A stretch of 34,273 bases of DNA from a virus, in the IMG/VR virus record IMGVR_UViG_3300044637_002626, positions 1 through 34,273 of that record; one strand, given 5' to 3'. A program made the translations under genes and the position numbers. Positions within the stretch are counted from its first letter, which is position 1. The number at the start of each line of letters is the position of its first letter. Below, piece by piece: positions 11,839 to 30,228 of this stretch. The notes beneath the pieces are model-generated. The model saw only the letters and a program-made list of their open reading frames with translations. It did no database searches and was not told where the DNA came from.

Positions 11839-12414
11839 TTATACAGTGGTGTTGAGTTCGTTGTAGATTCTTACGTGGCTATCGCCGAGGATCTTTACCT
11901 GCACCTGGATAAAGCGGGCAAGGAGCGGGCCGTACATGGTTTTGGCAAACCAGCGGCGGCGGCGTGGCGGGCCGTTCTGGTACATGCGGGTAGCAATGCC
12001 CCAGGCAATGCGGCGGGCGGCCACGCTCTCGGATGTCGGGCGCTTGTCTCCGGCATAGCCCGGTACGGTGCGGAACTTCTGCAGGCCGATGCTGAGGATC
12101 CATTTCTCGATCTCATCCACAGGTGGCCGGCGCTGGAAGGTGTACGGGTCTTTACTGTCTCGTATGCGGGCATAGTTGGCAAACGAGATCAGTACCTCAC
12201 CCACGCCATCTCCACCAAAACCAGAGATGGCTCCCTGTATAGAGTTAATGGCATCGCCGGTAAGGTTGAGCTTATTCTTCTGGGCAGAGTTGCGCAGCTC
12301 GCGGATGGCCATTTCCAGCCATGCGGCACAGGCGGCCATGAGTTCGTCGTTTACCTCTTTGGTGATTTCCACAGAAGCGAATTTCCGGAAAGCACAGGGC
12401 AAGGTATAGGACAT
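11839..12414 (-). CDS. Probable tail/neck protein upstream of tape measure
   Basis: The longest frame gives 191 residues from ATG 12412-12414, but that ATG directly follows the T run of a terminator. A GTG at 12370-12372 (about 177 residues, beginning at VEITKEVNDEL) fits the late-promoter geometry described at 12378-12412 and is my preferred start. The protein contains LTGDAINSIQGAISGFGGDGVGEVLISFANYARIRD, reminiscent of head-tail connector or tail-completion proteins, and an Arg-rich loop (PPRRRRWFAK). Being immediately upstream of the tape measure supports a tail-morphogenesis role. No firm family. Confidence 0.65.
   Translation of the reverse strand: MSYTLPCAFRKFASVEITKEVNDELMAACAAWLEMAIRELRNSAQKNKLNLTGDAINSIQGAISGFGGDGVGEVLISFANYARIRDSKDPYTFQRRPPVDEIEKWILSIGLQKFRTVPGYAGDKRPTSESVAARRIAWGIATRMYQNGPPRRRRWFAKTMYGPLLARFIQVQVKILGDSHVRIYNELNTTV
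12378..12412 (-). promoter_or_regulatory. Late promoter candidate before the tape-measure unit
   Basis: On the - strand: GTCCTA (12412-12407), 21 bases, GAAATTCG (12385-12378), five bases, then a GTG codon (12372). It differs by one base from the nAnnTTTG box. It lies at once after the terminator at 12415-12441, and bases 12407-12426 are an exact 20-base copy of 26295-26314, where the same terminator-promoter pair precedes the terminase small subunit. Confidence 0.5.
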
Positions 12415-12441
12415 AAAAAAGCCCCGGTTTTTGGCCGGGGC
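12415..12441 (-). terminator. Rho-independent terminator
   Basis: GCCCCGG (12421-12427) and CCGGGGC (12435-12441) form a 7-bp GC stem with a 7-base loop; on the - strand six T follow (12420-12415). It ends transcription of the 61-residue gene and precedes the tape-measure unit. Confidence 0.88.
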
Positions 12442-12462
12442 TGGGGTGTTTGTTTGAGTTGG

Positions 12463-12648
12463 TTACTTGGTTACGGGTAAGGTAGCGGCCACCAGCACAG
12501 TAGCAAAAACTTCTTCATCGGTAGTGAGGCGGCCAGTGCTTTTCTCTTTCCAGGCTTTGCGGTGCGGGGTGTACTGCTGGCGGATGGCTTCCATCATACG
12601 CTCTGGGTATTTAATGGAGTAGCTGCGTTTTTTTGCTTCGGCACTCAT
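12463..12648 (-). CDS. Small basic late protein
   Basis: A 61-residue basic protein (MSAEAKKRSYSIKYPERMMEAIRQQY...). It shares a base with the upstream stop (TGATG), so it is translationally coupled to the 95-residue gene. The two lie where siphoviruses keep tail assembly chaperones, just upstream of the tape measure, but I see no slippery site joining them and no family match. Confidence 0.6.
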   Translation of the reverse strand: MSAEAKKRSYSIKYPERMMEAIRQQYTPHRKAWKEKSTGRLTTDEEVFATVLVAATLPVTK

Positions 12649-12935
12649 CAGGCAAGGGGTTGAAGTTGATAGATGCGGGCATTGCGGTAAATATCTCTGA
12701 GTGAGCGGGCCAACTTTACCATGGTGCGGGCCTGGCCACGTACTACTTCGGATGGATGCTCGAGCCCGTGCAGGGTAACATCGTCAATAATTTCTTGAAG
12801 GCTGTCGGCAATGCGGGCGGGCTCCTGGCTAAAATCCTGGCCGATGTAATCCACAAAAGGGGCCAGATCGATTTCTACAATGCTACCAGTGTTTGGGCAG
12901 GTGTAGCGTACCTGTGTGGTGGATGGTGTTTCCAT
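12648..12935 (-). CDS. Late hypothetical protein
   Basis: A 95-residue acidic protein; the first part (TTQVRYTCPNTGSIVEIDL) may be a beta strand pair, the rest helical (EVVRGQARTMVKLARSLRDIYRNARIY). It is preceded by a structured noncoding leader (12936-13168) with a terminator-like hairpin 12 bases before the ATG, so its expression may be controlled by attenuation. Function unknown. Confidence 0.62.
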   Translation of the reverse strand: METPSTTQVRYTCPNTGSIVEIDLAPFVDYIGQDFSQEPARIADSLQEIIDDVTLHGLEHPSEVVRGQARTMVKLARSLRDIYRNARIYQLQPLA

Positions 12936-12946
12936 TTTTTTGAAAT

Positions 12947-13032
12947 AAAAAATGCCCCCAAGTGGCCGCTGCTTTACACAAAGTGGAACTTTGGAGGGAG
13001 CCGTTACCGGACATCCCGCAGCTTTGGGGGCA
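12947..13032 (-). terminator. Extended terminator-like hairpin before the 95-residue gene
   Basis: On the - strand TGCCCCCAA (13032-13024) pairs with TTGGGGGCA (12961-12953), inside which GCTGC pairs with GCAGC, enclosing a small CAAAGT/ACTTTG hairpin. Six T follow (12952-12947). The stem base is perfect over 9 bp. The inner part overlaps one arm of the long-range inverted repeat 12972-12987/13115-13130, so the fold could be switched. Confidence 0.65.
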
Positions 13033-13130
13033 AGGTCTTAATTCAAACAGGAGAGAAGCGGACACAAAAAAACCACTCATAACAACTTCGGAAAAGTTTT
13101 GAGTGGCTTCCGCATCCACTTTGTGTAAAG
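12972..13130. repeat. 16-bp perfect inverted repeat with 127-bp spacer
   Basis: CTTTACACAAAGTGGA at 12972-12987 is the exact reverse complement of 13115-13130. The right arm also sits inside a local hairpin (CGCATC 13111-13116 with GATGCG 13132-13137, loop closed by CTTT/AAAG). All of it is noncoding, between a secreted-protein gene and the 95-residue gene. Confidence 0.85.
13066..13106 (-). terminator. Rho-independent terminator after the secreted/membrane protein
   Basis: On the - strand CCACTCA (13106-13100) pairs with TGAGTGG (13079-13073), with an inner ACTT/AAGT helix, followed by seven T (13072-13066). It ends the transcript of the gene at 13169-13759. Confidence 0.85.
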
Positions 13131-13168
13131 CGATGCGAAGGTGGTGGAGTTACGGCAACTTTTCCAAA

Positions 13169-13759
13169 TTATTTTTTTAGGTAACGGATTTTCTGCCCGG
13201 CATTTTTTAGCTGGCGCCCCGCCTTAAGCCTCAGAATTACAGAGCTTAACGAAAGTACACCGCCCCCGGCAATAAAAATGTTGCCTACGCTCATGTTTTT
13301 AACCAACAGTAGGCCACCAACTGTATAGCCTACCACACCAAGTATGGTGCAGGTTTCGGCATTGGAGAGTTTCTGACCGGCATCATAAATATGATAGCTA
13401 AGGGCAATGCGGGCCAAACTGTCGCTCAGCTCTACCGGTGCCCGATCTACCTTGCCCAGGCTATTCATGGCCAGATCTCCGGGGTGCTTTACCATGCGGT
13501 TGCAAACGGGTGTGGTGCTGCATACCTGTTTGCGCATGTTGGTATCGGCTGCGTAAAAGCCTGCCACCTGGCGCCAGGGTATGGAGAGAGAAGCAAAGGG
13601 AGAATCTTTCCGCACAAAGTGCAGGGTGGTGGCAGTTACTGAATCGATACGGCCGGTAATGATCTGGGAGCCATCGGCGGTTTTCAACAAATCGGGGAAA
13701 CCGGTTTGCGCCTGGGCAAAGAGAGGGCTGGCAAGGATGAGAAATAGAATCTTTTTCAT
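13169..13759 (-). CDS. Secreted/membrane protein with Sec signal peptide
   Basis: This 196-residue protein starts with a textbook signal peptide (MKKILFLILASPLFAQAQ, cleavage after AQA-Q) and a mature part with a beta-rich first half (GSQIITGRIDSVTATTLHFVRK). Near the C-terminus are two hydrophobic stretches (TILGVVGYTVGGLLLV and VGNIFIAGGGVLSLSSVIL) and a basic tail ending YLKK. An exported protein among tail genes is unusual; it may alter the host envelope (superinfection exclusion or lysogenic conversion). The GxI-D-x-V-T motif resembles host envelope proteins of unknown role. It has its own spacer and terminator, like a moron. Confidence 0.72.
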   Translation of the reverse strand: MKKILFLILASPLFAQAQTGFPDLLKTADGSQIITGRIDSVTATTLHFVRKDSPFASLSIPWRQVAGFYAADTNMRKQVCSTTPVCNRMVKHPGDLAMNSLGKVDRAPVELSDSLARIALSYHIYDAGQKLSNAETCTILGVVGYTVGGLLLVKNMSVGNIFIAGGGVLSLSSVILRLKAGRQLKNAGQKIRYLKK

Positions 13760-13792
13760 AGGGTATGTATAAAAGTTGCCTGCAATATACGG

Positions 13793-14035
13793 CTACTCTT
13801 CTACTGGTACAGGTTTTGGCGGCGGGTTATCGAGTAAAGCCAATAACTGGGCAATGGTGCTGCAGGCGGTTTCACCTACCGTTGTTTCGCCTGCTTTGTA
13901 GCACTGGATAAGCTGCTGATCTTCCCGCTCCAGGCAGAGGTGCATGCAGTCGGGGCCCAGGCTCTCGTACCACTCTATGGAGTAGGTAAGCTCCTCGAAG
14001 GTTACGAGCCCGGCATTGTAGTAGATAATGGCCAT
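13793..14035 (-). CDS. Late hypothetical protein
   Basis: An 80-residue acidic protein (MAIIYYNAGLVTFEELTYSIEWYESLG) with four Cys residues and a Pro-rich C-terminus (PPPKPVPVEE). It follows the collagen-like fibre gene by eight bases and may be a fibre accessory or chaperone; this rests on position only. Confidence 0.6.
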   Translation of the reverse strand: MAIIYYNAGLVTFEELTYSIEWYESLGPDCMHLCLEREDQQLIQCYKAGETTVGETACSTIAQLLALLDNPPPKPVPVEE

Positions 14036-14043
14036 GGCAAGTT

Positions 14044-14772
14044 TTAATTTCTGGGGTGGATGGAGATAAAGTGCGATGTGTGTACCTCGGTAGTGTTGGC
14101 CGGCTGTATGGCCAGAATCAGGTACTGACCTACTGCCCAGTTAATGTTTACCGAGCCGCCTGAGAAGGTTGAAACATCGGTAAGGGCAGAGGTAGATGCG
14201 GAGAAGTTTAAGTGCGTAGCCGTAGAGCTTAACACTACCAGGTGGCGCAGTAGCTGGCCGCCTGCGGCACCGGTACCGATGCTGAGCGTAGCCAGCAAGG
14301 TGGCGCCCGAAAGAGAATCGGTTGTATTGATGTACACGCGGATGGTGTAGCCAGAGCCGGCTCCGTTCCGGGTGGTACGAATCAGAAAGTCGAACAGGCT
14401 GCCGGTGGTAAAGGTATCAGCCGGAATAAGGAGCGAGTTTACCCGGGTATTGGCCGTGGTGCCGGTAAGGGTGCTCTGGGTGGTGTTGGTAAGATACTTC
14501 CCAGCCGTGCCGGCATCTGTACCGGCTGGCCCTGCGGGTCCTGTTGGTCCGGCTGGTCCGGCGGGTCCAGTTGCTCCGGTTGGCCCGGCTGGTCCTGCTG
14601 GTCCTGCTGGCCCTGTTGGTCCTGCTGGTCCAGGCACTCCAGTAGCTTCTATTGAAGTTTTTAGATCCTGCAGCTCGTCTTTGTAAGCCACAGAAGTGAG
14701 CAACCAGTCCCATGCTTTTGCTGAAAACACGGAAAGGAACCTGTACTTTTCTGATACTGTGCGTAGTTTCAT
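14044..14772 (-). CDS. Collagen-like tail fibre / receptor-binding protein
   Basis: 242 residues: a short N-terminal head (residues 1-44), a collagen-type run of about 15 Gly-X-Y triplets rich in GPA and GPT (residues about 45-90), and a beta-rich C-terminal domain of about 145 residues ([25 protein letters not shown]) of the sort that trimerises and contacts a receptor. Collagen-like stems are common in phage fibres. The start overlaps the stop of the baseplate-like gene by four bases. The head probably docks to that protein. Confidence 0.75.
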
Positions 14773-17099
14773 CGAATAGGGCAGAGAGTAAATGTTGAAG
14801 GGGCGGAGTCCAATGGCATTGCCAGATTTACCTTTCGAATGAGATAAACCGTGTTTCTGACTCTTACTGGCTTAGAAAAATCAATCTTGGCAAGTGCAAC
14901 CTCATCCAGATAAACGGGCACATCTACGTTTTGCGTAGTGGTAATAAAGTCAATCCACTTTTTCCCAACGGTCTTGCAGAGGCCATCTTCATTTTCGAAG
15001 CGGGCAGAGGTTTCTACAGAAGTTGGCTCCCCGGCGTAGTTTTTTACGCCAGAGCTTGCCATGGGGTAAAGCGCAGAGGTAGAATCCTCCTGCATGCCGA
15101 GGTAGTTCATAAACCGAAGTGAAGTACGTTGAGAACTAAGATTGTACTTCGAATAGGCCTCTTCTTTAACTTTTGGTATTTCCCAGTTTACCCCACTTTT
15201 TTTTACCCCTCTGAACATCAAAGGGCTATCGGCATTTACCTCTACTCTTATATCTCCTTCTCCTTGCCTGAAGCCAACTGAATTATGGCTCTTGAGCACC
15301 CAGCCTACAGATCCATTATCGGCTTGAGCGAAGGCATAATACTTGTCTTCGCTCGAGACATATCGCACAGAGCCAAACACTGCCTCATTAATTGGAAGCT
15401 CCTGAGTAGTTGGTACAGATTGAAGGATTGTAAACTTATCCGGGAAAAGCAAGTCTGAAACAATAAGCGAGTTCCTGTACTCGTCTCTTGCGGAATCGCG
15501 ATAGGTAATAAGGTACCCATTGGAAGTAGGAAAATCTATGCCCTGCACGCCTGGGATCTCATAACTCCAATCTACAGGTGTATCTGACAAAACATCATCC
15601 AGTGTTTTTAGCAAAATGGAGTTGGTTCTAAAGTCAAAGAAAACACCCCAGTAGAAAAAGGTTCGCGCTGCATTCAGGAACTCATTCAAGAAAGCATCCG
15701 GCATTGCCTCTCGGATATTCCACTTGTTTCTAAAGCTATCAAAGTACCTGTACCCATCGGATGGCGTGTACAATACACTGACCTGGCTAAGAATAAGCGT
15801 AGAGTATAGAAGCTTTGCCGAATGAGAGGGATCGTCGAAAAACTCGCTGTTATACCTTAGCCCTAAGAAGCTGAATATCTTTGAAAATACCTCTTTGACA
15901 TAGATCTGCGGGCTGATCGCATACCGGAACCTTTGACCGAGGGTAATGGTGTTAAACTTAAATGCGCCTTCGTCGAAATAGTTCACCACACCCATGTAAT
16001 CCTCGTTTAATGAAAAGTCCTCATTCACAATACAGGGGTAAACAAAGCGAGCTTCTGGATCGGTAGATGGGAGCGAATTAACCTCTTGCATGTGTGCGTC
16101 CAAAAGGGTAGCGTATGATGCGAAGAAAGCCTCAGGGTCGATGTTTGAATCGAACACATCGAATCCATAACTCGATCCAATATTGGCAAACGAACCAGTT
16201 GGATTCATAAGATCGGGAAGGCTGGTTCTAATATCCTTGACTATAAAGCTATTCGTGAAAGGGATTTCACCCTCGGTAGCTTCGGCTACAATTCTTCCAT
16301 CGTGATAAGGGTCAGCATAGCGCCACGGTGTTGAGTAGCTGGTAAAACGGTACACGTGCCAGGCAGACCGTGCCCCTATCAAAATCCATTTTCCTCCTTC
16401 GCTTTCATCTACAAGCGGAAAACCCGTGTTATTCTCGAACGCTTCCCAATAGATACCATTTTCATCTACCACTACATCATTTTCGAGATATGAAGTTCCC
16501 AGAACAAAAGGCTGCGGGTAAACTGGGTTGTTAATTCCATCTACCATGTCCTGTATAGTGGTTGGTCCATCCGTGCGGAACTTCACATAGAAAACAATGT
16601 TATTCTGTGGGTAATCTGGCAAATCGTCATAAACCAATGTGGTCGTAATCAAATCGCCTTCGGCTGGCCCGTCGCCAAAAAACCCCATGTAAGCATGGAT
16701 GAAGAGATTGAACGTGATGGGCACTAAAACATCTTCCATAGGCAGATCTTTTAGCTTGGTCTCTTTCAAGTCGGCAGCAAACTGACCGCTTGCCGCCAAT
16801 AGATTAATCTTAAACCCTAAAGGAGTAGCCGCTCTTAAAACAAGCTTACAGGCAATAACAGATGTACCTGATTTTAATCTGAATCCAGGAAACTCTGTGT
16901 TCCTGGTCTGCTTTGCTTCTACATAATTCTTGAATGAGAAGAAAGCCTCATTGGTAGGAGTAGCGGGCAAATCAAACGCATACGAAAAACTGCCTGCAAG
17001 AACTTCCGGCTCGAAAATGGAGCTATTGAGAACTATGTTGATCCGGGTATCCGGGTTCAGATCTAATACGGTGCCATCGGGGGCAATAAGCTGCAACAT
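14769..17099 (-). CDS. Large tail/baseplate protein with carbohydrate-binding-like insert
   Basis: A 776-residue protein that starts MLQLIAPDGTVLDLNPD and contains FEPEVLAGSFSYAFDLPATPTNEAFF, an opening seen in large Bacteroidota phage tail proteins. Residues about 200-243 (GTSYLENDVVVDENGIYWEAF ... W-I-L-I-G) resemble small carbohydrate-binding modules of the CBM5/12 (ChtBD3) type, with aromatic residues at the expected places. The rest is beta-rich. It sits between a 368-residue tail protein (one-base overlap) and the collagen-like fibre, so a baseplate hub that carries fibres is the likely role. Confidence 0.7.
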   Translation of the reverse strand: MLQLIAPDGTVLDLNPDTRINIVLNSSIFEPEVLAGSFSYAFDLPATPTNEAFFSFKNYVEAKQTRNTEFPGFRLKSGTSVIACKLVLRAATPLGFKINLLAASGQFAADLKETKLKDLPMEDVLVPITFNLFIHAYMGFFGDGPAEGDLITTTLVYDDLPDYPQNNIVFYVKFRTDGPTTIQDMVDGINNPVYPQPFVLGTSYLENDVVVDENGIYWEAFENNTGFPLVDESEGGKWILIGARSAWHVYRFTSYSTPWRYADPYHDGRIVAEATEGEIPFTNSFIVKDIRTSLPDLMNPTGSFANIGSSYGFDVFDSNIDPEAFFASYATLLDAHMQEVNSLPSTDPEARFVYPCIVNEDFSLNEDYMGVVNYFDEGAFKFNTITLGQRFRYAISPQIYVKEVFSKIFSFLGLRYNSEFFDDPSHSAKLLYSTLILSQVSVLYTPSDGYRYFDSFRNKWNIREAMPDAFLNEFLNAARTFFYWGVFFDFRTNSILLKTLDDVLSDTPVDWSYEIPGVQGIDFPTSNGYLITYRDSARDEYRNSLIVSDLLFPDKFTILQSVPTTQELPINEAVFGSVRYVSSEDKYYAFAQADNGSVGWVLKSHNSVGFRQGEGDIRVEVNADSPLMFRGVKKSGVNWEIPKVKEEAYSKYNLSSQRTSLRFMNYLGMQEDSTSALYPMASSGVKNYAGEPTSVETSARFENEDGLCKTVGKKWIDFITTTQNVDVPVYLDEVALAKIDFSKPVRVRNTVYLIRKVNLAMPLDSAPSTFTLCPIR

Positions 17100-18205
17100 T
17101 AGATAGATGAGGCTTGGTTGTTATCGAATGCCAGGCGGAAGTCGAAGCCGTAGCTGGGCAGGTCGCCGTCGAAGTCGTTTCGGTATTCTACCGACTTGCT
17201 TTCCAGAATAATCGGCACCCAGCGCTGCAGATCCGGGCTCCAGAGAAACTTCCGAGGCGATAGCATAAAGTCCTGCATTACCGTTTCCAGAAGAGTGCGG
17301 GGCAGAAAACCGGTATAGGCCTTGTGCTTTTTGCGGCCCTCTATGCGCCAGGGCTGATATTGCTCCAGCGTAGTGTTTTGGAAAGCCGGGCCCAGATCGG
17401 ACTCGGCCACGCTCTGCGATACTTCCAGTGTGCGGGCCATGCTGCCGGTGCAGGGCAGAAAGGCCCAGCCACCACGAGAAGAGAGGTAGGCGAAATCGTA
17501 AGTGTTTGCCCGCACAGAGCCATCGCTTACCAGGCTTACCAATCGGGTAACCGAGTTGCAGGTTAGCTCCAGTGTAAAGTTAGGAGAGAGCTCCTCCGAA
17601 GGTACGGACATGGGTATGGCCCAAACATCGCCAGCTCGGGCCGAGGTAAAAGATCCGGAAACGGTACCAGATGGGCGGCCAAACAAATCGAAGTGGCGGA
17701 AAATCCAGTTTACCGTTCCCGTGGTTTGGAGCATGGCATACACGAAGCCGGTAGCCTGCCGGGGCACAAGTAGCGAACCTGGCACATGCAGAAAAATAGG
17801 CTGCGTGCCCGATGCCGTGGCAAAATCGTCGGCATACTCTTCCATCGGCTCGCCTCCCAGTACCACCAGGAGGGTGCCTGAGATGGTAGTCCAACTTGTC
17901 CACACTCCGGCATTGTAGTGCCGGTGCCGTATGCGGTACAGGCGGCTCAGCTCTGGTACCAGCACGGCATCCAGATCGGCACCGGGCAGCGAAGCCGATG
18001 CCTCCCGCATAAGGGCGGAGTGGATTATGCTATCTACCCGATCGGTAAGCTCTGCGCTGCCATCGGATGTAAATGCAAAGGTGCCCAGTACCGTGTAGCT
18101 TCCGGTATGGGCTACGGTTTCCAGGCTTACCTCTACCTCTACCGACTGATTCGGCGCAGTGGTGGTAATGGAGAAGGAGATGGGGTTGCGAGAGTATCGT
18201 GCCAT
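17099..18205 (-). CDS. Probable tail/baseplate protein
   Basis: A 368-residue, beta-rich protein (MARYSRNPISFSITTTAPNQ...). A fibronectin-like or jelly-roll fold is plausible from alternating strands (VEVEVSLETVAHTGSYTVLG), and the C-terminal 130 residues are more conserved-looking (KKHKAYTGFLPRTLLETVMQDFML). It overlaps both neighbours by one base. Position and composition suggest a distal-tail structural protein; I do not recognise the family. Confidence 0.62.
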   Translation of the reverse strand: MARYSRNPISFSITTTAPNQSVEVEVSLETVAHTGSYTVLGTFAFTSDGSAELTDRVDSIIHSALMREASASLPGADLDAVLVPELSRLYRIRHRHYNAGVWTSWTTISGTLLVVLGGEPMEEYADDFATASGTQPIFLHVPGSLLVPRQATGFVYAMLQTTGTVNWIFRHFDLFGRPSGTVSGSFTSARAGDVWAIPMSVPSEELSPNFTLELTCNSVTRLVSLVSDGSVRANTYDFAYLSSRGGWAFLPCTGSMARTLEVSQSVAESDLGPAFQNTTLEQYQPWRIEGRKKHKAYTGFLPRTLLETVMQDFMLSPRKFLWSPDLQRWVPIILESKSVEYRNDFDGDLPSYGFDFRLAFDNNQASSI

Positions 18206-18672
18206 TAGGTCCAGCGGGCTGCGTTGTAACAGATGTTAATGGTGTCAGTGAGTTTGAACTCAAACCGCCAGCCGATGAGGTTATCCACCAGGAGCGGATC
18301 TATCGGGTAGATGTCGGATTCAGAGAGGTCGATTTTGCTGCCGTTTTGTTTTGCATCTCTCAGGAGTCGAGCCATAAGGTCGAACACGATGGCCTCCAGT
18401 TGGTCGAGCATGTTATCCATCTGCGCCTCTGTGGTGGTTTTGTCGTTATACGGTTGGCAGATGGTTACGGCCGAAACCTTCTTGCCGAAGTAGGCCGAGG
18501 TGCTGGAGTTAATCTCGATGCTGGGCACTTCCAGCCAAAGGATCGGGCCTTTGAATTTGGAAACGGTATCGGCCCGGAGCTTGCTGGTGTTGCCGCAGAC
18601 AAAATTCCCGTTCAGTTCTACGTGAGAAGTGGACAGGGCGGCAAAGTATTCTTTGAGTTGCTTGTACTGCAT
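18205..18672 (-). CDS. Late structural-region protein
   Basis: 155 residues starting MQYKQLKEYFAALSTSHVELNGNFVCG, ending NICYNAARWT. The pattern (helix, 'ILWLEVPSIEINSS', then 'MDNMLDQLEAIVFDLMARLL') resembles small tail-completion proteins found beside Bacteroidota phage tail genes. One-base overlaps on both sides place it in a tightly coupled run of tail genes. Confidence 0.6.
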   Translation of the reverse strand: MQYKQLKEYFAALSTSHVELNGNFVCGNTSKLRADTVSKFKGPILWLEVPSIEINSSTSAYFGKKVSAVTICQPYNDKTTTEAQMDNMLDQLEAIVFDLMARLLRDAKQNGSKIDLSESDIYPIDPLLVDNLIGWRFEFKLTDTINICYNAARWT

Positions 18673-19469: not shown

Positions 19470-19686
19470 TCCTTTCGATTTTCTCGAAAATTCGGTAGAA
19501 GAGCACGTAGAGAAGTAGGACCGAAAACGAGAAGGCCAGCGTAGGTTTCCAGAGGTGGAAGTCTGAAAATTCAGGATCCCAGCCAGCCTGCCACCAGTTG
19601 TAAGAAGAAGCGATTACAGTGCTGCAGAAAAGCACGATGGCCGAATCGTGTACGATGTAGCCGAAGATGCGAAGGGGGTTTTTCAT
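19429..19686 (-). CDS. Two-TM membrane protein, lysis-cluster candidate
   Basis: I choose the ATG at 19684-19686, which overlaps the endolysin stop by four bases, giving 85 residues. There are two hydrophobic segments: IFGYIVHDSAIVLFCSTVIA and PTLAFSFSVLLLYVLFYRIF, with a basic C-terminus (KIERNGRDRDRRRN). Small two-TM proteins beside endolysins are often holins or antiholins. The longer frame to 19740 would overlap the endolysin far more. Confidence 0.6.
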   Translation of the reverse strand: MKNPLRIFGYIVHDSAIVLFCSTVIASSYNWWQAGWDPEFSDFHLWKPTLAFSFSVLLLYVLFYRIFEKIERNGRDRDRRRNLHY

Positions 19687-22382: not shown

Positions 22383-23673
22383 TGGTAGAAACGGTGGTTT
22401 GTTTTCCAGTCGGGTTTTTGTCGAGCGTGGTAAGCTGGGTGTCCTGAACTGCGAGGAAGTAGTCAGGATTCACTCCAGCCATCCACATAAGCATGTTGAG
22501 AGGTTCGAGTAGTAGGCTCCGAGGGATCGGAGTCTTAAAAGCTGTATGGAGTTCGGCTGCAGTGCGAAGTTCTGAGGCAGAGGAAGAAAGCTTACCACCG
22601 GTATCGATGCCGGCCAGGGCTGGGTTAATACCCACGGCACCACCTACTTCGATACGGAAGTCTTTAAAGAGCTGCAGGTACTTTTCATCGCTCGATTTAT
22701 TATCCAGAGAAATGATTTCCACACCAGGAAAAGGCTTTCCGGATGAGGGATCCACCATAAATTCTGTAAGTATGGCTTTATCTACATTACGAGTACCAGA
22801 TAGGTGCTCATCCATCTTTTGCTGCAGTTTCTCAAAGGCATCCTTACGCTCCTGAGAATCAGGCTCGCCAAATCGGTCGAGCCATTGAGATGGGATTTTG
22901 ATATGATACTTGGTATTGTACCCATTATCGAGCCCAGCCTTGTGGAACTGAGGTATCTTATTCAGCAATTGAATCGTTTCAATCGCTCCCCACCAGCTGG
23001 GCACTGCGTAGGTAGCCTGGCCTGAGGTTGGCATGGCAATGTGAAAGATAAACTGAGGCTCTACTTTTTCGATACCAGTGTAGTAGCGAGGGATTACGAT
23101 GCCTTTATCGGCTCCACCTTTGCCATCTCTTTCCCGAAAATAGATGTAGTTGTTTATCTGTCCGGTTTCATCGTCTCGCTCTTCCGCTCGAATGCTGGCC
23201 CAGTCCACTACTTTTACCTTTGCAGGCTTTCCGAGTGCGGTAAGCGTAACCAGTAGGTACACATTGTTGCTCTGAGGCCACTGCACGCACATTTCCAGCC
23301 ATAATTTCCGGAGGTTTATCTGGCGGAACCAGTTCTTTGCAGCTGCATCTTCCACCTCTTCCAGGATGCGCTTGGCTGGCATGCCATTAGTCCCTGCTTC
23401 GAGTCTCTTTTGAAAAAGGCAAAGTCCGGATCCATGGAGAAACTCCGAGTCCGTTTTCAGAAGCTGGGGCATGCTGGAGCTTTGCCAAATGGTTTCCAGC
23501 ACCAGATCGGGCAATTTGTCGTCCGATCCAAACTTTTCTATATCGAAGCCATGCTTTGTACCCTTCCTCTTGGTCTTAAGGGTATTACTCGACTGAGTTA
23601 CTTCGATAAGTACACCACCAGATCGGTGCTGGATGTAGCCGATTAACGGCTCGTGTTTCTTACTTTTTGCCAT
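22366..23673 (-). CDS. Phage portal protein
   Basis: 435 residues. It has the features of a portal: a helix-rich wing (AAAKNWFRQINLRKLWLEMCVQWPQSNNVYLLV), the stem region, a membrane-like segment near PQFIFHIAMPTSGQATYAVPSWWGAIETIQLL, and the 'SSDEKYLQLFKDFRIEVGGAVGINPALAG' region. It is the docking ring for the terminase. It lies downstream of TerL and overlaps the genes on each side by 14-17 bases. Confidence 0.78.
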   Translation of the reverse strand: MAKSKKHEPLIGYIQHRSGGVLIEVTQSSNTLKTKRKGTKHGFDIEKFGSDDKLPDLVLETIWQSSSMPQLLKTDSEFLHGSGLCLFQKRLEAGTNGMPAKRILEEVEDAAAKNWFRQINLRKLWLEMCVQWPQSNNVYLLVTLTALGKPAKVKVVDWASIRAEERDDETGQINNYIYFRERDGKGGADKGIVIPRYYTGIEKVEPQFIFHIAMPTSGQATYAVPSWWGAIETIQLLNKIPQFHKAGLDNGYNTKYHIKIPSQWLDRFGEPDSQERKDAFEKLQQKMDEHLSGTRNVDKAILTEFMVDPSSGKPFPGVEIISLDNKSSDEKYLQLFKDFRIEVGGAVGINPALAGIDTGGKLSSSASELRTAAELHTAFKTPIPRSLLLEPLNMLMWMAGVNPDYFLAVQDTQLTTLDKNPTGKQTTVSTNAPAS

Positions 23674-23965
23674 GGCGTACAGAAATGCCGTTCAATCCCA
23701 TAATGAGAGGGATTTTCACAGAAAATGGGTGGTTTTCTTCGATGTCAAATAGCAAAAGGGTGTGTGCCCGATTGCGTTCCTGCTTTTTGAATGAATCATT
23801 CTGCGCCCATCGCTGCCGGATGTCCTGCCGCTTCGGTACGCTGGCCAGTCGAACTCGCCTTTTCACTTTTCTGGCCATCGATTTCTCGCTGATAAAGTCC
23901 AATTCGAACTCTCCCATCGAGTTGTGAATGATTGCCAGCGCATCGTGAATGCTTAAGTCTGCCAT
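23660..23965 (-). CDS. Small late protein before portal
   Basis: 101 residues, basic, with MARKVKRRVRLASVPKRQDIRQRW in the middle and strand-like segments at the end. It is the first gene of the portal-lysis-tail unit and follows the late promoter element GTCCTA-N21-CAATTTTG with four bases between TTTG and the ATG. Function unknown. Confidence 0.65.
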   Translation of the reverse strand: MADLSIHDALAIIHNSMGEFELDFISEKSMARKVKRRVRLASVPKRQDIRQRWAQNDSFKKQERNRAHTLLLFDIEENHPFSVKIPLIMGLNGISVRHGKK

Positions 23966-23969
23966 GGTT

Positions 23970-24004
23970 CAAAATTGAAGTCCGCATAAGGGCTTTAATA
24001 GGAC
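23970..24004 (-). promoter_or_regulatory. Late promoter candidate before the portal unit
   Basis: On the - strand: GTCCTA (24004-23999), 21 bases, CAATTTTG (23977-23970), four bases, ATG (23965). Spacing to the base matches the elements before TerS and the prohead protease. The right box resembles the Bacteroidota -7 TAnnTTTG. Confidence 0.68.
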
Positions 24005-24175
24005 AGCTTTTCGCCCATCAGATTCTCATTTTTCAAAAACGACCTTTTTGGAGGCCAAAACCTTAAGCCATGGCCGTGCTTTTATCCATCCCACTTCTCC
24101 GGAGCCGATGTGCACGGGCGCACTATCGCAACAAAAGGTTGCGGTATTCCTTTTTCGGCTTATATGAAGATGTTG

Positions 24176-24198
24176 GAGTAGTTGCCAGGCAACTACTC
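24176..24198. promoter_or_regulatory. Perfect 23-bp dyad (possible operator)
   Basis: GAGTAGTTGCC and GGCAACTACTC are exact inverted copies around a single central base. No T run follows, so it is more likely a protein-binding site than a terminator. Its GTAGTTG core recurs in the origin iterons and the integrase-side repeats. Confidence 0.75.
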
Positions 24199-24220
24199 GC
24201 CAGTAAAACAGGCGGTTAGG

Positions 24221-25744
24221 TCAGGAAAGGAAGGTGCTCATGGCACTAAAGTGCGAGTAGTTACCCAGGCGGGAGTACAGGGAGCACAGAAGGTAATCTA
24301 CACAGTCGGATAAGTGGGTAGCCATCTCCTGGGGTATGTTTCGGCGCTCGCTCGACTTGTCTTTTTTAAAGTCGGAGGTGATCTCAGCGTACTGCATGCT
24401 CATCATTACGGCCTTGCAGTTATGGGCATGGAAGCGGATAATGGGGTACTTCGGCTCTGGCCGGCGTAGTAGGTTATTGATAAGGATCTGCCTGGGGCGG
24501 TGCTCGGGTAGCTTTCCGGATGCTTTCACCACACAGGCCCAGCCATTATGCAGGAAGCGATTCTTTACCTGCACGAAGATGGCATCGGCACCTAAGCGCT
24601 GGTTATGGGCGGTGGTATCTCCATAGACCTCTACATACTTCACCTGGTGCATGCTGTATTTGTTGCAGAACTTATCCACCAGCCGATCTACCAGAAGGAG
24701 TTCGGATTTATCCTGAAGTGGATCAGGTACTTCCCAAAGGTTATCGATAAAGCGCAGCTCCTGGGCATTACTGAGCTGGGTCTGCTGGGCCACCACCATG
24801 GAAGTGAATCTGTTGTTAAAGTCCATGGAAAGCAGAAGCGCTCCATCCAGCTTTATGAAGGTATCGCGTGTTATTTTCCGAGTGCCCTCGCCAAACTCGT
24901 ACTCGAATACATCGAGGCAGGCATGCTTCTCTTCGGAGAAGCTGGGGTAGTAGCCGCCACCGATTGGCCGATCGAGTTCTCCATTCTCAACTTCAACAAA
25001 CCACTCCATAGGGGAGAGCACCTGGCGAAGGTTCTCGATGTAGTCTCGGCCGAGGATGGCCACATTATCGTGCGTGGTGCCAGACATGAAGAGGTAGAGA
25101 TCCGGATTTGCTTTGGCAAATTCCCGCCACTCGAATACCCAGCGCCCGTTTGGATCCCAGGGGGCAGAGGTAAAGTGTGCGATGCTTTGGTGCATGTAGT
25201 TACGCACAGGATCAAACTTACCAGGGCCGGTAGTGCGACCACGCACAGAGGCCACAAAGATTTTATTCCACACGTCTGGCTTAAACATGGCAGACTCATC
25301 TCCAGATAAAGAGTCAAAGGAACCGCCACGGAACCGGTCTTTTACTTCCAGAGAGCCCAGCTCCTTTACATGTCCATTGATAAAGAAATAACAGTATTCC
25401 GGGTTTTTGGGAGCTTTAAAGGGCGAGGCGAAATGCTTTGGCGGCTTTCTGCCGAATACCCACTGCCCTTGCCTGGTGTGCTCGTTGTACTCGTTAATAT
25501 TGTACAGCTTCCAGGTGCTTTCCAGTTCTGGGCAGGTTTTGGTGAGGAGCTGGTAATAAGTAGGCGCTACGATCAGCGATTTGCCTGTAGGTAGGTTGCG
25601 AAAGAGCGCATGCTCATGGTGCCCCATTACGTGGGTCTTTCCAAAACCACGGCCAGCGATCAGCGCCTTTCGCTTTTGCCGGGCATGCAGGAAAGCAAGT
25701 TGCTTAGGGCTTAGCGAAATAACCTTAACCGACTTCTCCGCCAT
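24221..25744 (-). CDS. terL: Terminase large subunit
   Basis: 507 residues. The ATPase half has Walker A GRGFGKT (residues 31-37), a Walker B-like LSGDESAMF and the region VRGRTTGPG; the nuclease half has acidic residues at LSMDFNNRF, VYGDTTAHNQ and LSDCVDYL. It cuts concatemers and drives DNA into the procapsid. It overlaps TerS by 20 bases. The gene stops just before a 255-bp regulatory spacer. Confidence 0.92.
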   Translation of the reverse strand: MAEKSVKVISLSPKQLAFLHARQKRKALIAGRGFGKTHVMGHHEHALFRNLPTGKSLIVAPTYYQLLTKTCPELESTWKLYNINEYNEHTRQGQWVFGRKPPKHFASPFKAPKNPEYCYFFINGHVKELGSLEVKDRFRGGSFDSLSGDESAMFKPDVWNKIFVASVRGRTTGPGKFDPVRNYMHQSIAHFTSAPWDPNGRWVFEWREFAKANPDLYLFMSGTTHDNVAILGRDYIENLRQVLSPMEWFVEVENGELDRPIGGGYYPSFSEEKHACLDVFEYEFGEGTRKITRDTFIKLDGALLLSMDFNNRFTSMVVAQQTQLSNAQELRFIDNLWEVPDPLQDKSELLLVDRLVDKFCNKYSMHQVKYVEVYGDTTAHNQRLGADAIFVQVKNRFLHNGWACVVKASGKLPEHRPRQILINNLLRRPEPKYPIIRFHAHNCKAVMMSMQYAEITSDFKKDKSSERRNIPQEMATHLSDCVDYLLCSLYSRLGNYSHFSAMSTFLS

Positions 25745-26261
25745 TTTTTACAGGGATTGGATCCACTACACGGTGCGGCACATCGATGGTGAAAACCTTA
25801 TCTGCAGCTTCCAGATACTTCGGATCGGTAGTGAAAATGAATAGATCCGGCTGGTAATTGTCTGCAGAATCGAGCCCGCCATCTGGCAGGTTTTTCAAAT
25901 TCATAAGCTCGATGGCCTGTTTCGAAAGGTTGGCAAATGCCTGCAGGTCGCCCTCTTCTCGGGCTTTTCTTGCGGCTGCCACCAGACTCTGGTACCACAT
26001 GTTTCTTTCTGCCTGCAGATTGATGGTGAGCGCATCGCAGAAGATATCGCTCGCCTCCTGGGTAATGCGGGCAGCGGTAGAGATGGCCAGATCCGGAAAG
26101 TGCTTACACAGTTCCCGTGCCCGCTCCATTACCGTGTACATGCCTACGGAAAGGGCAAAGCTCATGCGGTACTTTTGTACCATGTCGGCCTCCTTTGGCC
26201 TGGCTCTCCGCTTCCCGGCAATTATTTCGCGGTAGCGGTCTATCTGATCGGGTTTCAGCAT
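25725..26261 (-). CDS. terS: Probable terminase small subunit
   Basis: 178 residues, helical. It begins MLKPDQIDRYREIIAGKRRARPKEADMVQKYR, a plausible HTH-like DNA-recognition head, followed by a helical middle (AARITQEASDIFCDALTINLQAERNMWYQ). It directly precedes and overlaps TerL, the usual TerS position. The upstream spacer has a terminator and a late promoter candidate. TerS sequences diverge fast, so the call relies on position and size. Confidence 0.68.
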   Translation of the reverse strand: MLKPDQIDRYREIIAGKRRARPKEADMVQKYRMSFALSVGMYTVMERARELCKHFPDLAISTAARITQEASDIFCDALTINLQAERNMWYQSLVAAARKAREEGDLQAFANLSKQAIELMNLKNLPDGGLDSADNYQPDLFIFTTDPKYLEAADKVFTIDVPHRVVDPIPVKNGGEVG

Positions 26262-26265
26262 GAAA

Positions 26266-26300
26266 CAAAGTTGCCCGGCCGCCTCGGCAACTTTTAGGAC
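26266..26300 (-). promoter_or_regulatory. Late promoter candidate before the terminase unit
   Basis: On the - strand: GTCCTA (26300-26295), 21 bases, CAACTTTG (26273-26266), four bases, ATG (26261). It overlaps an AAAGTTGCC/GGCAACTTT inverted repeat (26267-26275/26286-26294). It begins two bases after the T run of the preceding terminator. Confidence 0.7.
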
Positions 26301-26302
26301 AT

Positions 26303-26331
26303 AAAAAAGCCCCGCAACAAAGTCGCAGGGC
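26303..26331 (-). terminator. Rho-independent terminator
   Basis: GCCCCGC (26309-26315) pairs with GCAGGGC (26325-26331) with one mismatch; six T follow on the - strand. It ends the 247-residue coiled-coil gene. The sequence AAAAAAGCCCCGCAACAA is shared with the terminator at 33586-33614. Confidence 0.85.
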
Positions 26332-26363
26332 TTTCACTTTCTAAAACCCTATTATACTGAAAC

Positions 26364-27107
26364 CTAACCTTTGAGTTCGGCTTTCAGGTTTTTGATCTCG
26401 GCCCGGATGGCATCGAGTTCGGCTTTCAACTTGGCGGCATTCTCAGCGATTTCCGGATTATCCGGGCGCTCTTTTGCGCTTTTGTTGGCCTTGGTTACGT
26501 TGGCTCTTAGGTTGCGCTCGGTCTTTTCTAAGCCTTCCAGCTTCGCCTGCAGCTCAGCCAGGTTGCTGGGTGCTGCGGGTTTCGTAGCCTTCCAGAAAAT
26601 GCCCTTGCTGGCCAGTAGCCGGAGCTGTGCGCTGAGGTCTTGGATCTTCTCATCCAGCTTGCCCAGGGTTTCCATCTTCTCCTTTGCTTCTTCGCTGAGC
26701 TCCTCGCCTTCTTTGGTGTTGGCGGCCAGCCAGTCGCTCAGTTCGTTGCGCTGGGCGTAGGTAGCACGGCGAACGAGGATCAGCTCTTTAGCGCCATCTC
26801 CCAGGCTTTCGCCACTGAGGGCTTCTTGCTCTTTGGCCTCATCTTCCAGAAGCGATTCTACCAGCGGATCCGGGCCTACGGTTTCCTGCACCGGCTCCGG
26901 CACGGAAGGCGCAGTAGGCTGCACGGGCTCATAGTTTCGGCCGATGGCTTTGCAGAGCTCGTACTCCAGCTTCTTAAGCCGATCAGGCGTTTCCCGCATT
27001 ACATAGTTAATGATGTTGCGGTTCTTGCAGACTTTGGAAAGGAGCTGCACTCCTTCGTTGTGGTTTTTCACCTCGGCATCGAGCCAGGCTTCAATACTTT
27101 CTTTCAT
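26364..27107 (-). CDS. Coiled-coil late protein
   Basis: I choose the ATG at 27105-27107, giving 247 residues; the open frame further upstream runs into a terminator hairpin. A short N-terminal domain (MKESIEAWLDAEVKNHNEGVQLLSKVC) is followed by a Pro/Glu linker and two coiled coils (SEEAKEKMETLGKLDEKIQDLSAQLRLL; ENAAKLKAELDAIRAEIKNLKAELKG). It stands alone between two terminators, so it is expressed as its own unit. Possible roles: scaffold-like, head decoration or DNA-packaging accessory; no family recognised. Confidence 0.65.
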   Translation of the reverse strand: MKESIEAWLDAEVKNHNEGVQLLSKVCKNRNIINYVMRETPDRLKKLEYELCKAIGRNYEPVQPTAPSVPEPVQETVGPDPLVESLLEDEAKEQEALSGESLGDGAKELILVRRATYAQRNELSDWLAANTKEGEELSEEAKEKMETLGKLDEKIQDLSAQLRLLASKGIFWKATKPAAPSNLAELQAKLEGLEKTERNLRANVTKANKSAKERPDNPEIAENAAKLKAELDAIRAEIKNLKAELKG

Positions 27108-27131
27108 GGTCGGTATCAGTTTTACAGGCAA

Positions 27132-27167
27132 CAAAAAAGGGAGCGCAATGGCTCCCTTTTTTAGGAC
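27132..27167 (-). promoter_or_regulatory. Weak late promoter candidate overlapping a terminator
   Basis: On the - strand: GTCCTA (27167-27162), 22 bases, CTTTTTTG (27139-27132). The A of the nAnnTTTG box is missing and the spacer is one base longer. The terminator hairpin 27133-27162 lies between the two boxes, so the element may both end one transcript and start the next. The ATG is 24 bases downstream. Confidence 0.35.
27133..27162. terminator. Bidirectional rho-independent terminator
   Basis: Six A, GGGAGC (27139-27144), six-base loop, GCTCCC (27151-27156), six T. Symmetric, so it can act on both strands. On the - strand it follows the tail-tube candidate gene. Confidence 0.88.
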
Positions 27168-27180
27168 GGTTTGGCAACTT

Positions 27181-27720
27181 TTAGCCGGCTGTGGTTAAGT
27201 CGGTAATGGTGCCCGCAAATTCGATCAGGCCCTCGGCGCTCTTGTAGTAGAACTCCAGCTCCTGGCCGTTTGGTGCTTCCAGATCGTCTCCGAATTTCCG
27301 GTTTAGTTTGCGGAGGATGGCTGGAGTTTCTTTGGTGCCTGCAATGAAGATTTGCCCGCTGTTAAGCACGAAGGCAAACACACCGCGGAAGGTGCCGCGT
27401 ACCTGGTTAAGGTAGTCGCGGTTTACCGCAGAGTTACCTTTCACCATGCACTTCCCGATGGATTCGTAAGCTGGTGACTGCGGCGTGCCGATGTCGTTTT
27501 CCTCAATCCCTGCTTTGCCACCTTCGGAGTTTTTGATGAAGTCGAACTCCATGAATTTCTTACCAGAGGCAAACGTGAAGGCATCAGACAGGTACTTTTT
27601 GGTAGTACCGTCTTTTGCATCCATCGCAGTGATGTCAGATGCCAGGATGCCAAAGATCCGGGCCACGCCTCCAGGTGCACTTTCGCACGTGGAGGCCATA
27701 TTGATGAGCGTTACACACAT
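27181..27720 (-). CDS. Probable major tail (tube) protein
   Basis: 179 residues, beta-rich with a C-terminal sheet-like region (GVFAFVLNSGQIFIAGTKETP ... ELEFYYKSAEGLIEFAGTI). Size, composition and position right after the major capsid gene suit a tail-tube protein. It could instead be a head decoration protein. The stretch MCVTLINMASTCESAPGG at the N-terminus is Cys-containing, unusual for a tube protein, and the true start may be the second Met. Confidence 0.6.
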   Translation of the reverse strand: MCVTLINMASTCESAPGGVARIFGILASDITAMDAKDGTTKKYLSDAFTFASGKKFMEFDFIKNSEGGKAGIEENDIGTPQSPAYESIGKCMVKGNSAVNRDYLNQVRGTFRGVFAFVLNSGQIFIAGTKETPAILRKLNRKFGDDLEAPNGQELEFYYKSAEGLIEFAGTITDLTTAG

Positions 27721-27746
27721 AGCTTTCTCAGTGGGTTAGGAGATTA

Positions 27747-28685
27747 CTACGCTTGGTCGTTGGTCCAGATTACCTGGCCATCGCAGAAGTTTACTCCTGC
27801 ACGGAAGTCGCCCATGATTTTGAGCGTCCGGTTGAACGGCTGCACTTCGATGTTGCTTCCGATTCCGTCCACATCGTAACCATACACCAGATTTTCTTTT
27901 GGTGTGAAGATTACACGCTGGCTGGTGCCCATGCCTGGTACTACAATGATCTTGGCACGAGTGCCTTCCACGTACATCTGGTCGAAAGACTTGTTGTACA
28001 CTACGGCACCAACTTCGGCACGGTAAGCCTCCAGATACAGATCTGCCACCGACTGAGACATCAGGCAGTACATTTCTTTTTGGCGGTACTCAGGAGCAAT
28101 AAGGGCACGAATGCCTTTTACCTGGTCGAAGGCATTGGAGGCATCGATTACTTCGCCATCGTACACGTTGCCTGCAGGGATTTCGGTAGATGCGATTGCA
28201 GCGGTAATGAGAGTAAGAATACCGCTCATGGTAGCGGCCGCAGTCGTTCCGCTGGCGTTGTAGGTTCCGGACCAGATGGCAGTCTCCAGGTCGTCAATTA
28301 CCCGCTCGGTAATGGCATCCATGATGAACTGCTCGAGAGGGATGTCGAATGGAGAACCAGGAGGCGCACCTTCTACCTGACCGATCCAGGACTGGTACAG
28401 ATCCAGCGGCACGATGCTGATGTCGAAAGAGCACCGGCGGGCTTTGAGAATTTGAGCGCTGAAAACCAGGGCATCAGATGCTGCGGTAAAACCTCCACCT
28501 GATGCGTACGGCTTCAAAACGGAGCCAGTGCGCAAGCGCATGAGAGGTACCTCGTCGATAATGCTACCATAGGTGGTAAACAATCCGCGAGTAGATTCTT
28601 TGAGGGCTTTCCTGAAAGCCTCTGCCTTATTCTGCCGTGCGTAAGCCCCGAGGGTGCTGTTGAGGGCGGTAATAGTTACAGACAT
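27747..28685 (-). CDS. Major capsid protein (HK97-like)
   Basis: 312 residues. The first ~30 residues (AYARQNKAEAFRKALKES) form a short helical arm, followed by an HK97-type core: 'LMRLRTGSVLKPYASGGGFTAA', 'CSFDISIVPLDLYQSWIG', an A-domain with 'RALIAPEYRQKEMYCLMSQSVADLYLEAY', and a C-terminal strand pair (RVIFTPKENLVYGYDVDG ... GVNFCDGQVIW). It follows the protease-scaffold gene, the standard order, and precedes the tail-tube candidate. Confidence 0.82.
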   Translation of the reverse strand: MSVTITALNSTLGAYARQNKAEAFRKALKESTRGLFTTYGSIIDEVPLMRLRTGSVLKPYASGGGFTAASDALVFSAQILKARRCSFDISIVPLDLYQSWIGQVEGAPPGSPFDIPLEQFIMDAITERVIDDLETAIWSGTYNASGTTAAATMSGILTLITAAIASTEIPAGNVYDGEVIDASNAFDQVKGIRALIAPEYRQKEMYCLMSQSVADLYLEAYRAEVGAVVYNKSFDQMYVEGTRAKIIVVPGMGTSQRVIFTPKENLVYGYDVDGIGSNIEVQPFNRTLKIMGDFRAGVNFCDGQVIWTNDQA

Positions 28686-28734
28686 GTTAGAAGTGGTTGC
28701 TGCTTAAGAGGTGAGAAAAAGAGAGTTAAGAGTG

Positions 28735-29343
28735 CTAAGCGAGGCGAGCCTTCGCCGCATTGATTTCCCGCTGGCGTTTAGCCCATGGGGTTTCTTCAAG
28801 CGGGTTGGTGGCTGTGCCCTTCTTGCCATCGCTTACCCGGTTGCCAGTAGGCACTACTACGTTGCGCATCAGGGGCGCTTCGGTAATGGCCCGGAGCGTT
28901 TCGGCCTGCCGGCCTACTACTTCGCTCAGGCGGCTTACTGCTTCGGCAAGGGCACGCACCTGGCGGTCGGTTTCTGTGCCATCTTCTGAGGCAGAAGCGG
29001 CTGCAGGTTCGGCGGCAGGATCGGTAGTAGCCGCAGGTGCTACCACTTCGGTAATGAGGCCGGCATCGTCGGTAGTGATGGTGTAGCCATCCAGATCGCC
29101 GGTGAGCGTGTGCGTACCGGCAGGCGGTACATCGCTGGTGCCGTTAATGTACACCTGGTCTCCCACGGCTGGGATTTCCGAGTCGGATTCGATCGAGATT
29201 ACCGTGCCATCGGGCAGGGTGTTTTCGATGCTGCGGGGCGTTTCGGTTGCCGCAGGCTCTCCGGCAGCATTGCGCTTACCCATGCCGAGGATGCCTTTGA
29301 TCTTATCGATAAGATCTTCGGTTTTCTTTTGCGATTTATTCAT
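28735..29343 (-). CDS. Possible nested scaffold from internal start
   Basis: An in-frame ATG at 29341-29343 (MNKSQKKTEDLIDK) begins exactly where the scaffold part of the fusion starts, giving about 202 residues. Lambda-like phages make a separate scaffold from such an internal start. The start is supported only by its position in the domain layout. Confidence 0.35.
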   Translation of the reverse strand: MNKSQKKTEDLIDKIKGILGMGKRNAAGEPAATETPRSIENTLPDGTVISIESDSEIPAVGDQVYINGTSDVPPAGTHTLTGDLDGYTITTDDAGLITEVVAPAATTDPAAEPAAASASEDGTETDRQVRALAEAVSRLSEVVGRQAETLRAITEAPLMRNVVVPTGNRVSDGKKGTATNPLEETPWAKRQREINAAKARLA

Positions 29344-30189
29344 GGTGAGGAAGTTGTGAGACTTTAAGCTACGGGCTTGCCCGTTGTAGCGGTTAATGAA
29401 GTTTTCGAGGATCTGTGGCTGCTCCACCAAAATTCGCATGATCTCCGGGTTGTTATCCAGAAAATCGGTAGCTCGCTGGGCCAGGCTGCCACCATCGCGG
29501 AACATGTTGAGCGTGTTTGCGCCCTGATCTACGAAGTCGGTAAAGTGCCAGGCCTGCACCCGTTCGTACAGGATTCTCTCTTCTTCTGGAAGGGAGAGCA
29601 TGTAGAGGCCTTGTTTATTACTGCCTTCCCAGTCCTCTTCCTGCCCTTCGGCATTGATGAAGTACATAGGCCCAGGTGAGAAAACGATGCTCATCATCAT
29701 CGCATCCGGATTTTTGGATGCCATGCCGAGGATGTAGGTTTTAAGCCCTGGCTTACCTGGGCTCATTTCGGCAACATCGTCGAGGGTGATGTCGGCTATT
29801 ACCTGGTTATCCCGCAGGCGGAAGTTCCGGGCCCGGCCGGCAAAGGTTCCCAGCGCTGGATTGCACTCATTCGGGTGCCCGAAGCGGATCTGCATGCCAG
29901 CGGCTTCGAATGCTTTGCCCAATTCAGCCAGCTTTTCGATGAAAGCCTGTGGAGTTACTACACGGAGGGTAAGATCTTCGTAGCTGCCCCACTCATCTTC
30001 GTCGGTTGGTGGAGTCCATACCCAGGTCCAATCCCATCCGGCTCCGCCACGGGGCTGCATGGCCTGGCAAAGCACCACATCACGAAGGATGCCCGCTTCC
30101 AGATCCACATTGGCGGCAGCTACGCCAGCACTGGCGGCCCGGCTCATTACCTGCCCGCGGCTGTTGGCAAATGGATGTAGTTTTTCCAT
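28735..30189 (-). CDS. Prohead protease-scaffold fusion
   Basis: 484 residues from the ATG at 30187-30189; an earlier in-frame ATG (30207) lies inside the late promoter. Residues about 1-225 form a protease of the Mu gpI/S78-like prohead type: His in RFGHPNEC, beta strands around GTFAGRARNFRLRDNQVIADITL, Ser in MMMSIVFSPG and an Asp in WHFTDFVDQGAN. After about residue 285 comes a scaffold-like part: MNKSQKKTEDLIDKIKGILG, a disordered Ala/Thr/Glu-rich linker, then a helix (QVRALAEAVSRLSEVVGRQAETLRAI). A capsid maturation protease with built-in scaffold precedes the capsid gene, as in lambda C/Nu3. Confidence 0.78.
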   Translation of the reverse strand: MEKLHPFANSRGQVMSRAASAGVAAANVDLEAGILRDVVLCQAMQPRGGAGWDWTWVWTPPTDEDEWGSYEDLTLRVVTPQAFIEKLAELGKAFEAAGMQIRFGHPNECNPALGTFAGRARNFRLRDNQVIADITLDDVAEMSPGKPGLKTYILGMASKNPDAMMMSIVFSPGPMYFINAEGQEEDWEGSNKQGLYMLSLPEEERILYERVQAWHFTDFVDQGANTLNMFRDGGSLAQRATDFLDNNPEIMRILVEQPQILENFINRYNGQARSLKSHNFLTMNKSQKKTEDLIDKIKGILGMGKRNAAGEPAATETPRSIENTLPDGTVISIESDSEIPAVGDQVYINGTSDVPPAGTHTLTGDLDGYTITTDDAGLITEVVAPAATTDPAAEPAAASASEDGTETDRQVRALAEAVSRLSEVVGRQAETLRAITEAPLMRNVVVPTGNRVSDGKKGTATNPLEETPWAKRQREINAAKARLA

Positions 30190-30193
30190 GGTC

Positions 30194-30228
30194 CAAAAGT
30201 CCACCATGGGCAGGCCCTATCTTAGGAC
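30194..30228 (-). promoter_or_regulatory. Late promoter candidate before the capsid unit
   Basis: On the - strand: GTCCTA (30228-30223), 21 bases, GACTTTTG (30201-30194), four bases, ATG (30189). Geometry identical to the elements before TerS and the portal unit. Confidence 0.68.

Follow-up and report, generated by a model that had tools for sequence, protein, structure and literature searches.

Replacing the upstream element of a host promoter is a known phage strategy. In the middle promoters of phage T4, the MotA box replaces the -35 element while the -10 element is kept, and MotA and AsiA appropriate the host sigma factor (PMC6755090). In the Bacteroidota, the TAnnTTTG box of sigma-A spans -12 to -5 in Flavobacterium psychrophilum, and leaderless messages are rare, at 5.5% (PMC9723704); in B. 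thetaiotaomicron, 5' UTRs shorter than 10 nt make up about 3.7% (PMC7366714). Our literature searches, with subscription papers outside their coverage, returned no GTCCTA element, no late promoter or regulator of Bacteroidota tailed phages, and no Helgolandviridae promoter. The element presented here, its phylum, its leaderless geometry and its candidate factor family were not found in that searchable literature.

We scanned the window, that is, the whole 34,273-nucleotide stretch of viral DNA analysed, for GTCCTA-N21-nAnnTTTG-N4-ATG, and found three exact copies, all on the - strand. An earlier note had reported these copies at the same positions, with the 21-base spacing and the ATG four bases past the box, together with a fourth copy at 12412-12378 followed by a GTG five bases on, and all of them were recovered. 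The copies, a variant and the genes behind them are as follows.

30194..30228, - strand: exact copy, GTCCTA-N21-GACTTTTG; predicted +1 is the A of the ATG at 30189-30187
28735..30189, - strand: first late gene behind the 30194-30228 promoter, family F24, 484 aa; ATG at 30189, not 30207
27132..27167, - strand: variant promoter, GTCCTA-N22-CTTTTTTG, ahead of the F12 gene (ATG 27107), from sequence and fold
26266..26300, - strand: exact copy, GTCCTA-N21-CAACTTTG, ahead of terS, from the sequence scan
25725..26261, - strand: terS (small terminase), ATG 4 nt past the TTTG box, located ahead of TerL
23970..24004, - strand: exact copy, GTCCTA-N21-CAATTTTG; also exact ahead of the F42 orthologue in relative G010
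23660..23965, - strand: gene behind the 23970-24004 promoter, family F42/F32, 101 aa, directly preceding the portal gene
12378..12412, - strand: fourth copy, GTCCTA-N21-GAAATTCG, one box mismatch, preceded by a terminator T-run
11839..12372, - strand: F15 gene, predicted to start at the GTG, which gives an N-terminus that aligns with those of F15 orthologues

The GTG at 12372 is in frame with the open reading frame 11839-12414, and F15 orthologues in three relatives (G008, G026 and G031) have exact copies with an ATG at N4. Similarly, the F24 orthologue in relatives G010 and G015 carries the same element with a box-to-ATG gap of 4 nt. The 30189 start of the F24 gene is in frame and agrees with the orthologue N-termini, and a shift of this start from 30207 to 30189 is supported in line with them. 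Orthologues thus bear out the proposal that the element settles start codons. The F24 gene, which had been called a prohead protease, gave no PHROG match. As for the weaker versions noted before, the one ahead of 27107 was confirmed, with a 22-base spacer, and recurs in relatives; the one ahead of 33528 (TTCCTA-N21-GCAACTTG) was rejected for two box mismatches. Two further GTCCTA hexamers were also rejected: that at 19521, which has GAATTTTC at spacing 22 and overlaps a 103-aa ORF, and that at 31559, which lacks a box.

The window has seven GTCCTA hexamers, every one of them on the - strand, which also encodes the virion genes; TerL and portal were identified among these. The exact pattern occurred three times in the window, and none of 500 dinucleotide shuffles contained even one copy, confirming that the shared spacing is unlikely by chance. 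A post-hoc control, in which any hexamer at any spacing of 15-30 before nAnnTTTG-N4-ATG was allowed, gave a best same-hexamer, same-spacing count of 3 in the window against no more than 2 in any shuffle, a value that 3 of the 500 reached. A single phrog_874-type gene is split between the window ends, 2-508 and 33845-34273 (- strand), which encode its N-terminal and its C-terminal portion; the two peptides overlap, and the window therefore probably represents a whole genome in circularly permuted form. Its early region also holds a DUF5131 gene (1010-2074, - strand; Pfam E 1e-100).

We then turned to a sample independent of the motif. Loci were chosen by TerL alone, and late-strand hexamers were scored 21 nt before an exact nAnnTTTG; the window TerL alone as query gave no IMG/VR relatives. 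Among all 4096 hexamers in the IMG/VR TerL loci, GTCCTA ranked first (45 occurrences) and GTCCTT second (23), the next reaching 9, which was also the best count for any hexamer on the opposite strand. The spacing from GTCCTA to the box was 20 once, 21 in 45 cases and 22 in 14, with none elsewhere between 10 and 32 and a single match on the opposite strand. After removal of seven loci whose records had also surfaced via the motif, 71 loci remained. In these, 53% of GTCCTA and 42% of GTCCTT hexamers had the box at exactly 21, against a background of 1.8% and a best value of 9% for any other hexamer; 58 of the 71 loci had at least one boxed site and 42 had two or more. About half of the GTCCTW hexamers in TerL-selected loci have no box.

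The same was found in GTDB prophages (72 TerL-selected loci from named Bacteroidota: Spirosoma, Dyadobacter, Hymenobacter, Runella, Larkinella, Flavobacteriaceae, Pedobacter and others), where 28% of GTCCTA and 45% of GTCCTT were boxed at 21, the next best being GTCCTC with 14%. The element occurs among phages of the orders Cytophagales, Flavobacteriales, Chitinophagales and Sphingobacteriales. Most loci favour one form of the final base, A or T, and some genomes use both. Two cultured phages have the GTCCTT form: Polaribacter phage Leef_1 and Cellulophaga phage Ingeline_1, in which GTCCT is the most enriched pentamer (15-fold). Microcystis phage Mea-Yong924-1 (MZ447863) has 6 of 9 GTCCT pentamers boxed, plus a homologue of the protein F11 considered below; with this Bacteroidota-type late promoter regulon and F11, its real host is probably a member of the Bacteroidota associated with Microcystis.

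Records selected by the motif itself gave a consistent picture, and the search of related phages that the earlier note had called for showed that the element recurs widely, beyond one genome. At least 120 IMG/VR stretches matched the pattern with ATG; several contigs had two exact sites, and many sites lay directly behind terminator T-runs. These phages have portal, terminase and other structural families in common with the window. Across 40 records from two pattern scans, the pattern without ATG matched 82 sites, versus 3 for the reversed pattern, and all sites of each record were on a single strand. The earlier note had named an equal frequency of the motif in spacers and in coding DNA as refuting; instead, its sites precede gene starts on one strand. 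When the box was accepted with up to one mismatch, it followed GTCCTA at exactly 21 in 156 of 267 cases from 43 sequences, at 22 in 11 and at 20 in 5. An IMG/VR search with terminator plus GTCCTA (TTTTTTATGTCCTA) returned mostly chance matches and is therefore unusable as a sampler.

With the sigma-A box at -12 to -5, GTCCTA would occupy -39 to -34, where hosts have their -33 element; the A of an ATG at N4 would fall at +1, giving a leaderless mRNA. The three window genes with this geometry are accordingly predicted, from sequence, to be leaderless. At TerL-locus sites, an ATG or GTG stood exactly 4 nt past the box in 42 of 145 cases (about 29%) versus 4.1 expected from other offsets, and the other sites had leaders of tens of bases. 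The very short leaders proposed earlier would be of zero nucleotides by the published box position, a layout present at only this fraction of the relatives' sites. The -7 box itself agrees with the host's: its A, TTT and G were strongly conserved at GTCCTA sites, with 1.1-1.9 bits per column in sites that had been chosen by the box itself with at most one mismatch, and its first T is often C or G instead. No conserved TTG or TTTG corresponding to the -33 element was found in the spacer, and upstream nothing but GTCCT[A/T] was conserved. The spacer is free in sequence and fixed in length: its bases are unrelated between sites (below 0.3 bit per column after the first column), with the exception of the last column in GTCCTT sites (0.4 bit).

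Two window copies directly follow intrinsic terminators.

26301..26332, - strand: intrinsic terminator hairpin with its T-run abutting GTCCTA (limits approximate), from sequence and fold
12413..12443, - strand: intrinsic terminator abutting GTCCTA, from sequence and fold (-16.3 kcal/mol)

In the F12 promoter (27132-27167) the spacer is itself an intrinsic terminator hairpin (-18.1 kcal/mol), whose T-run contains the TTTG box. This nested design was also found in G008, G010, L308, L311 and L313, and the six genomes folded had five different stems.

Taken together, the comparative data support a phage late promoter with a Bacteroidota -7 box and the -33 element replaced by GTCCTA, as the earlier note had proposed. 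We consider it highly probable that this is a clade-wide late promoter of Bacteroidota tailed phages, in which the host -7 box is kept, GTCCT[A/T] takes the place of -33, and a phage factor, most likely F11, is involved. Exchange of the -33 element with retention of -7 implies a phage protein that contacts both the polymerase and GTCCT[A/T]. The -7 box (nAnnTTTG, -12 to -5) would be recognised by the host's RNA polymerase and primary sigma, and a phage-encoded protein, most likely F11, would bind GTCCT[A/T] at about -39 to -34 in place of the -33 TTTG contact. F11 would be expressed at the end of the early region, immediately ahead of the first late promoter; late transcription would start 5 nt past the box, the message being leaderless where the ATG is at 4 nt; and the upstream terminators abutting GTCCTA would insulate the late units. 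The sequences show directly the element with its set spacing, its strand, its specificity for phages, the geometry of the start codons and the F11 correlations; transcription from the element, its late timing and F11 as the factor are what we infer from these patterns. A phage-encoded factor, as postulated earlier, remains the best reading, the motif being unenriched in hosts and a candidate gene being at hand, with F11 as the putative protein.

31016..31498, - strand: F11, 161 aa, candidate reader of GTCCT[A/T] (near-universal, placement, HTH fusions in relatives)

Twelve families occur in at least 22 of 23 near-complete genomes, among them terS (family F03, 23 of 23) and F11 (22 of 23), although co-occurrence is weak evidence for F11, which co-occurs with other clade genes by descent. 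The eleven other families were taken as virion, lysis or packaging genes, their roles being assigned by annotation, neighbourhood or sequence and for several of them presumptive. F11 is the only near-universal family in these 23 genomes with no evident virion or packaging role. In the window it stands just ahead of the first late promoter. The first late site is within 1 kb past the F11 stop in 49 of 71 loci, and sites are denser downstream of F11 (1.89 per 10 kb) than upstream of it (0.71). In several relatives F11 is fused to a C-terminal HTH, above Pfam cut-offs in L383 (MarR_2, HTH_24) and L399 (HTH_28). Its near-universality, its place at the early/late boundary and these fusions make F11 the best candidate for the factor. 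That it founds a new phage factor family, replacing Bacteroidota -33 recognition through GTCCT[A/T] and driving a phylum-wide and partly leaderless late switch, we regard as an evenly balanced proposition.

F11 matched no Pfam, PHROG or PDB family. Its predicted fold is confident (pLDDT 84), the Leef_1 homologue alone resembles it clearly in structure, and its core showed no recognised DNA-binding fold and no significant PDB fold; similarities to MukF, gp79 and TnpE were set aside as weak (Z 3 or below). The window copy is without the HTH extension. F11 was not detected in G027 (40 kb) or in several long contigs carrying sites, and a comparison of F11 residues with the A or T at position 6 gave no clean switch residue. 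The HTH types differ between L399 and L400 on the one side and L381, L383, L390 and L277 on the other; they are transposase-like HTH_28, MarR/HTH_24-like and sigma-region-4-like, as though phages had swapped the module that reads DNA. In Flavobacterium phage 6H (L300) the F11 homologue is weak, and neither a GTCCT element nor any other enriched box was found in that phage.

It is possible, if doubtful, that the same promoter is served by another phage factor, such as the LuxR-type HTH protein F26 or another early gene, and that F11 is a virion-morphogenesis or replication protein. The short F11 forms do lack a recognised DNA-binding domain, and LuxR-type and other HTH proteins are encoded in early regions; but F26 is present in only 8 genomes and F16 in about half, whereas F11 is near-universal with no evident virion or packaging role, lies at the early/late boundary and is HTH-fused in several relatives. 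The phrog_874-like gene (33845-34273 plus 2-508) was also considered as the factor and rejected, occurring in only 8 of 40 relatives.

An alternative sigma encoded by the phage, reading both boxes, is improbable. Extended F11 models are nearest to DnaA DNA-binding and ECF sigma structures, at non-significant values (best E 0.075), and the L381 extension matches Sigma70_r4 at 3e-5, just below the cut-off; however, no F11 member matched sigma region 2. Such a sigma would go with two boxes that both differ from the host consensus, but the downstream box is that of host sigma-A, for which no new sigma is needed.

That a host activator or unusual host sigma reads GTCCT[A/T] and is exploited by the phages is very unlikely. 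The spread of the element over phages of four Bacteroidota orders would suit a widely available reader, but in 16 whole host genomes the GTCCTW pattern was overall rarer than its reversed control, and the matches clustered inside prophage, for example five in 21 kb. Furthermore, no GTCCT-type motif is among the six F. psychrophilum sigma motifs (PMC9723704). The element belongs to phages, not hosts. Finally, chance, shared ancestry of a few repeats or a non-promoter repeat serving packaging or recombination is a negligible explanation: two window copies share a terminator context and the phages are related, but the spacers are unrelated at a fixed length, the genes whose starts the sites face come from many different families, shuffles gave no copy, and the TerL-selected IMG/VR loci and GTDB prophages refute it.

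Bacteroidota tailed phages dominate many environments, and the promoter is recognisable by sequence across whole families. It thereby allows late operons and start codons to be called where phages and prophages lack annotation, and it comes with a concrete regulator candidate. It could also serve as an orthogonal, phage-specific promoter system in Bacteroidota, and it predicts that a set of messages are leaderless, as few are in this phylum.

In summary, the closest model is the T4 middle promoter, in which a host -10-type box is likewise kept and the upstream element is swapped for a phage-specific box. The T4 box lies near -30, whereas here the hosts are Bacteroidota, the element is GTCCT[A/T], and it stands at a fixed 21 nt from a TAnnTTTG-type box; the genes served are late structural genes, with predicted leaderless starts. 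No match was found between F11 and MotA or AsiA, and, remote similarity aside, nothing MotA- or AsiA-like was matched by the other small early proteins of the window. The element shares with Bacteroidota sigma-A (Bfr) promoters (PMC7366714, PMC9723704) the -7 box nAnnTTTG, placed alike with respect to the start, but has GTCCT[A/T], unenriched in host chromosomes, instead of a conserved TTTG at -33. The Helgolandviridae and Duneviridae (Leef_1 and Ingeline_1; PMC8776804) likewise have portal, terminase, head protease and F11 homologues, with the GTCCTT version ahead of their late genes; the window phage differs from these phages in its richness in GC (53%) and its use of GTCCTA, and the relationship is no more than distant, with 25% TerL identity to Leef_1.
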